From Modestobacter roseus (lineage in GTDB: Bacteria; Actinomycetota; Actinomycetes; Mycobacteriales; Geodermatophilaceae): a stretch of DNA of 64,000 nt. The notes under the pieces were generated by a model that did not search any database, was not told the DNA's origin, and saw only the letters and a program-made list of their open reading frames with translations. Shown one piece after another: positions 3,994-23,307 of this stretch. Location: positions 3,410,001 through 3,474,000 of the forward strand of contig NZ_VLKF01000001.1 of NCBI RefSeq assembly GCF_007994135.1, in the 5' to 3' direction. Both the position numbers and the translations under genes were made by a program. Position 1 is the first letter of the stretch; every line of letters starts with the position of its first letter.

Positions 3994-4015
3994 GCGGGCC
4001 CCCCGCCGCGCCAGC

Positions 4016-4053
4016 TTTCGGCGCCGAAACCCGGCCGGGTTTCGGCGCCGAAA
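4016..4053. repeat. Perfect 38-bp palindrome with nested palindromes
   Basis: The 38 bases equal their own reverse complement. The unit TTTCGGCGCCGAAACC occurs twice, and TTTCGGCGCCGAAA is itself palindromic. It fills most of the 79-bp gap between the flavin oxidoreductase stop and the degenerate nitrilase start, the only sizeable gap in the downstream part of the operon. It could attenuate or process the transcript, or be a dispersed intergenic element; a related hairpin lies at 33927-33952. Confidence 0.9.
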
Positions 4054-4072
4054 CCTGGGGGGACGGCGCGCC

Positions 4073-11380: not shown

Positions 11381-11780
11381 CTCACAGGTCGCCACGGACC
11401 GATCGTGCCAGCTCAGCGGCCGGTGAGGTCGACAGCAGGGTGTGTTGTTCTGTGCGCAAGTCCCGCTACGTCCCGCGAGAGAACCGGGCGCGGCCGACCG
11501 CGGTCGGCACGCGCAGCGGAGACGATGGACCACCCAGGCCCGGAAGCAGCCTCCTCGTGGTTCTCGGCGGTTCAACGGCTCGGTGGTGTGCGTTCGTGGC
11601 GGCTTCCGCGTCCAGAACCCGCCATGACCGCACATTGCTCGGGCCCGCCGTCGGCGGACGGCCGAGCTGTGCGGCCGTGGCCCCCTGGCGAACTGCTCCT
11701 CCTGCGGGCCGCCGTCCACGCCGCGTGACTAGTGAACGACAGCGGGACTCACGCACATCTGCCACACCTTGCTGCCGAAC
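11381..11780. other. Gene-poor 400-bp segment
   Basis: No reading frame here has convincing composition or family signal in any of six frames. It contains the extra 22-bp copy of the glyA 3' end (11412-11433). Base composition looks less extreme than its surroundings, and TGTGTTGTTCTGTG-like stretches are unusual for this genome. It may be the remains of an inserted or deleted gene. Confidence 0.6.
11412..11433. repeat. Direct repeat copy 1 (duplicate of glyA 3' end)
   Basis: These 22 bases are identical to 11780-11801, which encode the last codons and stop of glyA (V-D-L-T-G-R-stop). The copies are in the same orientation, 368 bp apart. Confidence 0.9.
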
Positions 11781-15412: not shown

Positions 15413-15427
15413 CGAGACCGCGCCACC

Positions 15428-15480
15428 GTTGTGCACTGATCGTCGTTCGGCCCGCGGCAGACCGACGATCAGTGCACGAC
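15428..15480. repeat. Palindromic element P1 (GTGCAC family)
   Basis: Arms 15428-15445 and 15463-15480 (18 bases, one G-T wobble) enclose a 17-base loop. It lies between convergent genes and could terminate both. Its sequence, including the loop end CGGCAGACCGACG, matches element P2 at 18473-18527, so it belongs to a dispersed family. Confidence 0.85.
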
Positions 15481-15488
15481 GGGTGAGG

Positions 15489-18396: not shown

Positions 18397-18472
18397 GGGT
18401 CCGTGTCTACCAGGCGGGCCCGACAGCGCACGACGGAGATCCTGAGCACGGCTACGGATCGCCTGGGCCCAC

Positions 18473-18527
18473 CGTTGTGCACTTCTCGTCGGTCCGCGGG
18501 CGGCAGACCGACGGAAAGTGCACAACG
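18473..18527. repeat. Palindromic element P2 (GTGCAC family)
   Basis: Imperfect inverted repeat: CGTTGTGCACTT, two mismatches, CGTCGGT on the left and the complement on the right, with a 13-base loop. It resembles P1 in both arms and loop. It sits between the divergent starts of tldD and the MBL hydrolase, so it is not simply a terminator; it may affect both promoters. Confidence 0.85.
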
Positions 18528-18591
18528 GCGTCGCCGGCCGGGACGGGATGGCCGCGCATCGCCGACGCTCCCGCCGGGTAGCCGACCGGGC

Positions 18592-20441: not shown

Positions 20442-20891
20442 GTGAACAAGGTCCTGCTGGGTGTGGCCGGTGCGGTGCTCGCGATCGGCGCTGCCGTGGT
20501 CGGCGGCGTCGTCGTCGCGATGCCGGTGGGTGTGTCGGGACCGGGCGCGGTGCTCGCCGAGCTGCAGGGCCACACCGACACCGACAGCTTCGCCGACGCC
20601 GGTGACGCCCCCGACGGCTGGCTGCCCGGCTGGGTGAGCGGCAGTGACGTCGTCGTCGTGCGGCCGGGGGAGGCCGCCGGCGACGACAGCGGCGCCATCC
20701 GGGCCGACCTGGTGCTCGACCCGGGCACCGAGCTGCCGGCCGACTGCACGCCCGCGGACTCGATCAGCATGCCGTGGGACGGCGGCGGTTCCTGGCCCGA
20801 GCTGACCGATCAGCAGCGCTGCGGTGACTGGGTGGCCGTCCAGCTCGGGGACCACCTCTACCTCTGGGGCGAGACCTCCGCCGGGGTGTGA
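20442..20891 (+). CDS. Small exported or membrane-anchored hypothetical protein
   Basis: A 149-residue protein. Residues 3-30 form one strongly hydrophobic segment (signal anchor or uncleaved signal peptide). The rest is acidic, Trp-rich and has two cysteines (A-D-C-T-P, Q-R-C-G-D) that could form a disulfide outside the cell. GTG start with GGAGG eight bases upstream. I do not recognise the family. Downstream, palindrome P3 overlaps the gap to the convergent DUF559 gene and may terminate it. Confidence 0.65.
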   Translation: MNKVLLGVAGAVLAIGAAVVGGVVVAMPVGVSGPGAVLAELQGHTDTDSFADAGDAPDGWLPGWVSGSDVVVVRPGEAAGDDSGAIRADLVLDPGTELPADCTPADSISMPWDGGGSWPELTDQQRCGDWVAVQLGDHLYLWGETSAGV

Positions 20892-20901
20892 CCAGCGTTC
20901 A

Positions 20902-20957
20902 GCACTGTGCGCTGGGTGCCCGTTCCGGCCACCGAGTGGGCAGTCAGTGCACAGTGC
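20902..20957. repeat. Palindromic element P3 at the 3' side of the DUF559 gene
   Basis: Outer arms GCACTGTGC / GCACAGTGC (20902-20910 and 20949-20957) plus inner matches (CTG, TGCCC / GGGCA, CAG). It overlaps the last codons of the DUF559 gene. It is similar across its length to P4 (21941-21998) at the other end of the gene. Confidence 0.85.
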
Positions 20958-21861
20958 TCGCGGCTCGGGCGCGGTACACCGCAGCGATCTCCGCCTGGCA
21001 CGCCGCGGGTTCACGGGTGAGCCGGGCGCAGCTGAAGCGCAGCACCAGCCAGCCACGGGCAGCGAGCGCCGCATCGCGCCGCAGGTCGCGTTCCCGGGCC
21101 TCCCGGCTGCCGTGGAATGCCGCACCGTCCAGCTCCACGGCCAGCAGCAGGTCCGGCCAGCAGGCGTCGAGGAACGCCACGCCGTAGGGGAGTCGCACGC
21201 GGTACTGCTGCCGGCACGGGGGCAGTCCGGGGACGTCCAGGACGTGCCGCATGCCCCAGATCTCCAACTCGCTCTGCGACCCGCCGTCCACCAGGGCCAG
21301 TAGGGCGGCCAGGGCCGCGCGACCGGGCAGCTCCGGACGCCGGGCCAGTTCGCGCCGGATGGCCGGCACGCCGGCCCGGCGGGTGCGGACCGCCGTGATG
21401 ACCGCCGCCCGGGCGACGCCCGGGAAGCGGAGTGACCGTCGTCCGCCGTGCGCCTGCCCCCAGGCGTCCACCAGCGTCCGGGCCGGCCGGGTCACCGTCA
21501 GGCCGTCGACCCGGGTGCCGGACAGCTCGGTCACCCGGTGGACGGTCAGCTGCCGGGCCCGGGCCGGTGCCCGGCGCCGGGCGTCGATGGAGACGTGCAC
21601 ACGGTCGGCCTCGGGCGCCAGCTGCCAGGTGGACAGCGCGGTGTGGTGGCTCAGCACGCCCCCGGTCGACAGGACGGCGGCGACCGCCCGGGTGCGCCAC
21701 CGATCGGCGCACTCCGGCAGGACGACGACGTGCGGCAGCGGGCGGATCAGTCGCCCTTGGGCAACCCACCGCGACACGCTCGTCGAGCTGGTCCGGCCCA
21801 CGAGGTCGTCGATGCGGCGGACGCCGTCCGTGCCCATCACGCCGCGCAGGTCGACCGCCAC
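20944..21861 (-). CDS. AbiEi-like N-terminal / DUF559 endonuclease-domain protein
   Basis: A 305-residue protein of the type often named type IV toxin-antitoxin AbiEi-family or DUF559 protein. The N-terminal part has a winged-helix-like beginning (G-R-L-I-R-P-L-P-H-V-V-V-L-P) and an S-H-H-T-A-L element. The C-terminal part is a Vsr-like PD-(D/E)XK nuclease fold: S-Q-S-E-L-E, F-L-D-A-C-W-P-D-L-L-L-A-V-E-L-D-G, H, then a basic E-R-D-L-R-R-D and W-L-V-L-R-F. No toxin gene is adjacent. These genes are multicopy and of unknown role in actinobacteria. Here the gene is bracketed by two related palindromes. Confidence 0.82.
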   Translation of the reverse strand: MAVDLRGVMGTDGVRRIDDLVGRTSSTSVSRWVAQGRLIRPLPHVVVLPECADRWRTRAVAAVLSTGGVLSHHTALSTWQLAPEADRVHVSIDARRRAPARARQLTVHRVTELSGTRVDGLTVTRPARTLVDAWGQAHGGRRSLRFPGVARAAVITAVRTRRAGVPAIRRELARRPELPGRAALAALLALVDGGSQSELEIWGMRHVLDVPGLPPCRQQYRVRLPYGVAFLDACWPDLLLAVELDGAAFHGSREARERDLRRDAALAARGWLVLRFSCARLTREPAACQAEIAAVYRARAASTVH

Positions 21862-21940
21862 ACCCCGGAGCCTGCCGACCGGGCCGCCCGGTCAGGAGGC
21901 CGCGAGCGGATCTGTGGACAGCCCACCGCACGCCCCGCGA

Positions 21941-21998
21941 GGCACTGTGCGGCTGGTGCCCAGATCACCGCCGAACTGGGCACTCAGCGCACAGTGCC
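21941..21998. repeat. Palindromic element P4 at the 5' side of the DUF559 gene
   Basis: Outer arms GGCACTGTGC / GCACAGTGCC (10 bases, perfect) and inner arms GTGCCCAG / CTGGGCAC. It shares the outer arms and the TGGGCA-n-TCAG-n-GCACAGTGC half with P3. It lies about 80 bp upstream of the DUF559 start, just after the end of the deaminase gene. Confidence 0.87.
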
Positions 21999-22014: not shown

Positions 22015-23307
22015 TCAGCGGCCGGCGAGCCGCATCGCCCGGGTCTGCACGTCGGCGCGCAGCTCCGCCTCGTCGACGGTGGTCGACACCCCGTCACGGA
22101 CGACCTGCCGCCCGGCGACCCAGGTGTCCCGCACGTGCCGCGAACCGACCGACCACACCAGGTGGGTGAGCAGGTCGGTGGGCTCGCCGACCGGGACGAA
22201 CGCGATGTCCTCGCTGTCCACGTGCACCAGGTCCGCCCGCCGCCCGGCGGTGAGCTGCCCCAGGTCCTCGCGGTCGATCGCCGCGGCCGCGGCCCCGGTG
22301 GCCAGCCAGAACGCCTCCGGCGCGGTCAGCGCGGTGGCGTCCCGCTCGCGCAGCCGGGCCAGCTGGGCGGCCAGCCGCAGGTCCTCGAACAGGTCGAGGT
22401 TGTCGTTGGACGCCGGCCCGTCGGTGCCCATGCCGACCCGGATGCCCAGGTCGAGCATGTCCCGCAGCCGGGCGGTGCCGCTGGCCAGCTTGGTGTTGCT
22501 GCCCGGGCAGTGGGCGACGGCGACGTCGTACTCGCGCCACAGCTCCAGGTCGCCGTCGTCCATGTGCACGCAGTGGTTCGCCAGCACCCGGCCGCCGAGC
22601 ACGTCGTGCGCGGCCAGCAGCTGCGGCACGCTCTGCCCGTGCTGGGCGAGCAGCTCGTTCCCCTCGGTCGCGGTCTCCGCGACGTGGGTGGTCAGCAGCA
22701 TCCCGTGCTCGCGGGCCACCTCGGCGGCCTGGGTGAGCACCGGCAGCGGCACGGTGTAGGCCGCGTGCGGGCCGATGCCCCACTCGACCTGGTCGTCGCC
22801 GGTGCCGCCGGACGCCGCCGCAGCGGCCAGCTGCTCGTCGAAGCTGCCGAACCCGGGCAGGCCCAGCAGCGGGTGGGTGATCACGCCGCGCGCGCCGGTG
22901 CGCCGCACCGCGGCGGCCATCCGGTCGGGGTGGAAGTACATCTCCACGCTGGTGGTCACGCCGTGGCGCAGCATCTCCGCCGACGCCGCGGTCATCGCCA
23001 CCTCGACGTCCTCGGGCGTCAGCCGGGCCTCCCGCGGCCACATGACCTCGTTCAGCCACCGGTCCAGCGGCAGCCCCTCGCCCTGGCCGCGGAACAGCAG
23101 CATCGGCGCGTGCGAGTGGGTGTTGACCATGCCGGGGGTGAGCACCCCGGGCAGGGCGGTGACCTCGGCGTCCGGGGCCTCCGGGGCGTCGGCCGCCCGG
23201 CCGACCCAGCGGATGACGCCGTCCTCGACGTCCAGCACGGCGTCGGGGACCACGGTGCCGGTCCGGTCCCCGACGACGACGGCCCGGGCGGTGAAGCGCT
23301 GCAGCAT
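22015..23307 (-). CDS. MtaD-type amidohydrolase (5-methylthioadenosine/S-adenosylhomocysteine deaminase family)
   Basis: Metal-dependent deaminase of the TRZ/ATZ family, 430 residues. Metal ligands: H-S-H in M-V-N-T-H-S-H-A-P (about residue 62), H in T-T-H-V-A-E-T, H in A-N-H-C-V-H and D in G-T-D-G-P-A-S-N-D-N. Members deaminate MTA, SAH, adenosine, guanine derivatives or 8-oxoguanine; the exact substrate cannot be assigned. Start ATG at 23307. It is divergent from dedA with 72 bp between starts. Confidence 0.88.
   Translation of the reverse strand: MLQRFTARAVVVGDRTGTVVPDAVLDVEDGVIRWVGRAADAPEAPDAEVTALPGVLTPGMVNTHSHAPMLLFRGQGEGLPLDRWLNEVMWPREARLTPEDVEVAMTAASAEMLRHGVTTSVEMYFHPDRMAAAVRRTGARGVITHPLLGLPGFGSFDEQLAAAAASGGTGDDQVEWGIGPHAAYTVPLPVLTQAAEVAREHGMLLTTHVAETATEGNELLAQHGQSVPQLLAAHDVLGGRVLANHCVHMDDGDLELWREYDVAVAHCPGSNTKLASGTARLRDMLDLGIRVGMGTDGPASNDNLDLFEDLRLAAQLARLRERDATALTAPEAFWLATGAAAAAIDREDLGQLTAGRRADLVHVDSEDIAFVPVGEPTDLLTHLVWSVGSRHVRDTWVAGRQVVRDGVSTTVDEAELRADVQTRAMRLAGR

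Follow-up and report, generated by a model that had tools for sequence, protein, structure and literature searches.

Within the window analysed here, a stretch of 64,000 nucleotides of Modestobacter roseus DNA taken at its full length, a DUF559 nuclease gene lies between two related palindromes. The question raised by this locus is whether the gene and the palindromes form a unit, in which the nuclease recognises or spreads the repeats that bracket it. A sequence-only reading of the region had proposed as much, describing a Vsr-like nuclease with a palindrome at each of its two ends and likening the layout to that of REP elements and their RAYT transposases.

The window locus and its protein

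The downstream palindrome P3 (20902-20957) and the upstream palindrome P4 (21942-21997) are each 56 bp long, have no assigned strand, and score 65.7 and 62.6 bits respectively with the covariance model. Both exist as originally described: a re-reading of the sequence and a pattern search of the genome recover the outer arms GCACTGTGC/GCACAGTGC in each of them, together with the common half TGGGCA-n-TCAG-n-GCACAGTGC. The nuclease gene between them (20944-21861, minus strand) encodes 305 amino acids. P3 overlaps the 3' end of this gene, and its left arm, read on the gene strand, was correctly recognised as encoding the last residues of the nuclease, to which the TGA stop can be added (...T-V-H-*). 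The placement of palindromes at the two ends of the gene is thus accurate for P3, but P4 is separated by 80 bp from the start codon on one side, and on the other by 17 bp from the stop codon of a neighbouring amidohydrolase-like gene (22015-23202, minus strand, of which the 3' part is given) that serves as the anchor for empty-site comparison. On the other side a gene of 149 aa (20442-20891, plus strand) is the convergent neighbour of the unit, and adjoins the amidohydrolase gene in a relative with an empty site (G018).

The covariance model finds no other strong copies of this palindrome family (family 1) in the 64-kb window, and one weak copy. The weak palindrome (11583-11638, 27.6 bits) is by eye nearer to the GTGATGTGC type of the L081 and L084 units. 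In the 4.5-Mb genome the exact pattern GCACTGTGC-N20..50-GCACAGTGC is present in six copies and, read backwards, in none, and a looser pattern with up to three mismatches identifies 13 copies. The looser pattern is also found in seven of 22 other Modestobacter genomes, all reversed controls being zero, and is absent from all 16 genomes searched from the order's other families.

The nuclease is a two-part protein in which residues 1-192 are AbiEi-antitoxin-like (a winged helix and an AbiEi C-domain) and residues 195-301 are a Vsr/EDxHD-type nuclease. The window gene has Pfam DUF559 and REase_MTES_1575 matches, the C-terminal DUF559 and MTES_1575 matches are present in all 22 aligned homologues, and most of the aligned homologues match the PADLOC AbiEi model in their N-terminal part. 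In an AlphaFold2 model built from 50 sequences (mean pLDDT 91), residues 1-192 align with the AbiEi antitoxin 6y8q (Z 12.9), and residues 195-301 with NGO0050 (3hrl, Z 11.5), with the catalytic domain of the homing endonuclease I-Bth0305I (3r3p, Z 11.1) and with Vsr (1vsr, Z 8.3). The catalytic-type residues E198/E200, D232, E243, D245 and H250 are invariant or nearly so among homologues. The Vsr-like assignment stands for the C-terminal half, for which it is supported by Pfam and by the 3r3p and 1vsr folds, but it overlooked the AbiEi-like DNA-binding half. As modelled, that half offers a concrete route to palindrome recognition, and also a rival explanation, which is autoregulation.

Palindromes at other DUF559 genes

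Most DUF559 genes in Modestobacter sit between two long related palindromes, the sequence of which differs from one nuclease subclade to another. Bracketing was tested without bias at 80 named Geodermatophilaceae loci, using 78 other genes of those loci as controls and counting a palindrome if its span is at least 42 bp and its score at least 11. A palindrome is present upstream of 59% of the units and 10% of the control genes, downstream of 60% and 5%, and at both ends of 41% and 1%, the tally of two-ended units varying with the threshold. The upstream and downstream flanks of the units align with each other with a median score of 15.75 and a maximum of 40.5, compared to 11 and 17 in controls. 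Downstream palindromes usually overlap the gene by 9 bp, counted up to the end of the stop codon, such that the TGA falls within the left arm. There is no consistent orientation of the two palindromes of a unit relative to each other (24 direct and 17 inverted, not significant). Palindromes thus flank DUF559 genes well beyond controls, in which respect the initial proposal is largely borne out, and rather than lacking them, most close homologues of the window nuclease have them.

Related brackets are present at several DUF559 genes of other actinobacterial families. In a class-wide sample of 28 DUF559 loci, the two flanks of ten match better than the 99th percentile of cross-locus controls, and about seven of the brackets are clear (L198, L202, L209, L215, L216, L219 and L221); the longer multi-domain DUF559 proteins of this sample are generally without matching palindrome flanks.

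The palindromes diverge together with the proteins. Among 50 units, those with more identical proteins also have more identical downstream palindromes (Spearman 0.67; Mantel 0/2000). Units at different sites, a split in which the two clpX orientations were counted as different sites, have palindromes that share 23.2 of 56 positions when protein identity is below 45%, and 34.9 of 56 when it is 65-75%; the two palindromes within one unit share 40.9 of 56. Both chance and simple shared ancestry at one locus are rejected, by the control genes and by this co-diversification across different sites. Partial correlations are suggestive of the AbiEi-like half (rho 0.43) rather than the nuclease half (rho 0.28) as the part that tracks the palindrome, with a bootstrap interval that includes zero.

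The same correspondence can be seen within the window, which contains three palindrome families, each matching a separate DUF559 unit in this genome. A solo palindrome at 3997-4072 (no assigned strand) is composed of GGTTTCGGCGCCGAAACC units and is cognate to a third DUF559 unit of the genome (L007, at ~183 kb in G000:C1), against the flanks of which it scores 40, compared to a control of 13.5. Two solo 57-bp palindromes (CCGTTGTGCACT...), at 15426-15482 and 18472-18528 and likewise with no assigned strand, are cognate to the DUF559 unit L012 (G000:C1, ~12.4 kb), and score 32 and 29.5 against its flanks, with controls of 14 and 15.5 respectively.

We note that the distant DUF559 paralogues in G000 (L007, L010, L012 and L014) are bracketed by unrelated palindromes of their own, such as GGGCGGAAATGGCCATTTTCGCCC at L010.

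Sites and solo copies

The amidohydrolase-like gene of the window site is present in 22 of 23 Modestobacter genomes, and the whole unit is next to it in four of these. A clean empty site, of the kind that had been proposed for comparison among relatives, is found in G018, in which both unit and palindrome are missing and the two neighbouring genes are 14 bp apart; G009 has a palindrome without the nuclease at this position (site C). A solo copy at position 3390403 of G000 is also present in G005, G009 and G017 (which has two copies there), and is absent from G001, G014 and G018, in which a short terminator-like hairpin is found instead.

The 3' end of clpX hosts 51 of the 80 units, of which 33 are convergent and 18 co-directional with clpX. 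At this site the nuclease is reduced to a remnant beside a palindrome in G011, and is missing from G010, where a palindrome is nevertheless present. On a tree of 71 units, 16 site changes are required. Judged from these comparisons, the units appear to be mostly inherited at conserved sites with movement being rare, yet to have moved many times together with their palindromes. Examination of 46 solo or unit palindromes reveals no excess of direct flanking repeats, as would be expected of a target-site duplication, and no outward extension of the palindromes into their flanks; a search for plasmid or phage carriage returned no match.

As a separate observation, the 3' end of clpX (L313-L332) is a hot spot in which nuclease units of two clades are present in opposite orientations.

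Solo copies are dispersed through the genomes, with up to ~16 family-1 copies per Modestobacter genome as scored by the covariance model. Those solo copies that were examined are mostly intergenic, many of them lying between convergent genes, no more than ~20 bp from a gene end, and a few fall inside ORFs as called by a simple gene caller. Family-1 copies are also present in four Modestobacter genomes that have no close nuclease. A second family, GGCCCAGAACC-N5-GGTTCTGGGCC, is cognate to the L107 clade and is found in 47 of 112 genomes of the bacterial family, with a reversed control of 0. Of its copies, 26 of 30 sampled are solo; a spread of palindromes with no link to DUF559 genes, which would have spoken against a unit, is thus seen to the extent that most single copies stand alone, as REPs do, but the flanks of DUF559 genes are enriched over controls. 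Genomes with a cognate nuclease contain the palindrome in four of four cases, versus four of 19 without it (p 0.008), and in a further set in 16 of 19 versus 31 of 93 (p 5e-5), although these counts include the units' own copies and ignore shared ancestry. Unlinked solo copies alone average 1.53 per genome where the cognate nuclease is present and 0.60 where it is not, a difference that is no more than suggestive (p 0.07).

Candidate mechanism and relation to known systems

Flanks that exceed those of controls, ends that match, co-diversification, and joint travel to new sites together support a real unit of nuclease and palindromes, of ~1.1 kb and arranged as a palindrome, ~80 bp, a gene for an AbiEi-like domain with a Vsr/EDxHD nuclease, and a second palindrome. 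A plausible scenario, to which we assign a probability of roughly 0.55, is that the window locus is self-contained, with a protein that acts on and disperses its own palindromes. Two AbiEi-like domains would bind the type of palindrome that belongs to the unit, one on each arm (~21-25 bp), and the fused nuclease would act at or near the unconserved 5-6 bp at the palindrome centre. On rare occasions, repair or re-integration of the cut DNA would carry the entire unit to another intergenic site; more often it would leave solo palindromes, which would then persist at gene 3' ends in a REP-like manner. Binding, cutting and protein-caused dispersal of the palindromes are steps that we infer, and recognition of the arms by the AbiEi-like half, which would place the nuclease on the palindrome, is the simplest reading by analogy with AbiEi. 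A broader claim, for which we see even odds, is that nuclease-palindrome elements are widespread in actinobacteria, with an AbiEi-type repressor domain and a homing-endonuclease-type nuclease recognising, maintaining and dispersing their own cognate 47-57 bp palindromes, and that they constitute an undescribed mobile or housekeeping class that is a convergent counterpart of REP/RAYT.

The main rival is AbiEi-style autoregulation only. On this view the AbiEi-like half would act as a repressor with the palindromes as operators: the upstream copy would control the gene, those at the 3' end and at solo positions would be secondary sites or decoys, and the nuclease would have a separate role such as phage defence. 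AbiEi antitoxins repress their own operon from its promoter, where they bind 23-bp inverted repeats in pairs (PMC7319586), and the position of the upstream palindrome just before the ORF, the AbiEi fold of the N-terminal half and the PADLOC AbiEi matches in most members are all in line with such a repressor. We nonetheless consider this explanation unlikely, in that it leaves unexplained the 3'-end copy with its stop codon, the solo copies between convergent gene ends, and the polymorphism between occupied and empty sites. Moreover, no AbiEii (DUF1814) toxin gene adjoins the window gene as a partner, the neighbours identified by reading the ORFs being the amidohydrolase-like gene and the 149-aa gene.

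A homing process can also be envisaged, whereby the nuclease cleaves a solo palindrome centrally and repair of the break, templated by the nuclease locus, leaves the gene between two palindromes. The catalytic domain resembles that of the homing endonuclease I-Bth0305I, the centre is the least conserved part of the palindrome, and there are solo-palindrome sites without the nuclease where relatives have the unit (site C in G009, and clpX in G010). Homing predicts, however, that the outer arms form one ancestral palindrome, whereas outer-outer complementarity equals that of the palindromes' own arms; both flanking palindromes would stay cleavable, and the G018 site is clean and empty without any palindrome. 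On balance this origin seems improbable.

We give little credence to the palindromes being RNA hairpins, either terminators or mRNA stabilisers, with only an incidental link to the nuclease. Placement at 3' ends and between convergent genes is what such hairpins would have, and at clpX and the L169 site a copy stands in place of a terminator-like hairpin. Pairing between the arms is kept, with 79 cells having double changes compared to 39 in shuffles, although the copies were collected with a search pattern in which part of each arm is fixed, so that this result is not fully independent. On the gene strand, mismatches in the downstream palindromes comprise 87 A-C and 70 G-U, and those in the upstream palindromes 66 A-C and 82 G-U. 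Because A-C departures are as frequent as G-U, the pattern fits a DNA-level feature (a protein dyad, a cruciform or single-stranded DNA) rather than an RNA hairpin. Neither an Rfam match above threshold nor a U-tract terminator is present at P3 or P4, and a role in RNA leaves the matching upstream copy and the co-diversification with the protein unexplained. The least credible explanation is that an unrelated transposase moves the palindromes, with the nuclease gene either carried along as a passenger or acting to suppress them, which would suit the solo copies in genomes without a close nuclease, but not the several palindrome families of one genome, each with its own matching DUF559 unit, or the way in which palindrome type follows the nuclease clade across sites.

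The favoured scenario, of a unit that disperses its own palindromes, invites comparison with the REPtron, in which REP palindromes flank a RAYT gene and are also scattered elsewhere, chiefly close to 3' ends in the gaps between genes that are convergent or unidirectional; REP palindromes can supply stop codons, and there are several enzyme-specific families per genome (PMC3733652). The window-type gene is similarly flanked by palindrome copies, and the units share with REPtrons the dispersed extragenic palindromes near gene 3' ends, the supply of stop codons, and the several enzyme-specific families in one genome. The unit enzyme differs in being an AbiEi-like protein with a Vsr/EDxHD nuclease, as indicated by Pfam and fold, and not an HUH/Y1 transposase, and the palindromes differ both in length (47-57 bp, compared to 20-40 bp for REP) and in number (up to ~16 per genome, compared to the high copy numbers of REP). 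An unpaired GTAG/CGTC end tag is not seen by eye in any of 46 copies with flanks. The REP/RAYT analogy drawn earlier thus agrees on most anatomical points and fails on the enzyme and the tags, and because the unit lacks the defining HUH/Y1 transposase and the GTAG/CGTC tags we do not class it as REP/RAYT. By analogy, it looks like a counterpart of the REPtron in its way of working but with an unrelated enzyme, such that the machinery would be new and the layout analogous.

Other known systems share parts of the unit. The N-terminal 192 residues have the fold of AbiEi, of the type IV toxin-antitoxin system AbiE, and AbiEi recognises a pair of 23-bp inverted repeats separated by 3 bp (PMC7319586), a dyad near in size to the 47-57 bp unit palindromes; in the window protein, however, the AbiEi-like half is fused to a nuclease, and the palindromes are at both ends of the unit and dispersed genome-wide. 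EDxHD homing endonucleases such as I-Bth0305I, and Vsr, have in common with the unit the catalytic fold and the conserved acidic and histidine residues, but the window gene is free-standing and intergenic with its own terminal palindromes, and is not inside an intron, an intein or a coding target. DNA transposons that generate a target-site duplication differ from the units, which lack that duplication. No paper joining DUF559 with palindromes or with AbiEi was found in a literature search that lay outside most subscription papers and bioRxiv preprints, and a prior description is possible.

If the favoured scenario is correct, a REPtron-like lifestyle has arisen more than once, and the AbiEi-fused DUF559/REase_MTES_1575 proteins would have a natural substrate. 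Each nuclease comes with its own candidate substrate, which makes the question testable, and the units could be a source of compact site-specific nucleases with long, clade-specific targets.

Among minor observations, we note that two family-1 palindromes flank a two-gene segment in G009 (L153), and that a single palindrome is present between the same outer genes in G000 (L162). Comparison of these loci and of L170 in G001 gives the appearance of the segment having been lost between palindromes in G000. A shorter hairpin, CGACGGCCCGYTCCCC-n-GGGGAGCGGGCCGTCG, is present at gene 3' ends across the genus (L313, L318, L323, L330 and many DUF559 loci) and is probably an ordinary terminator.
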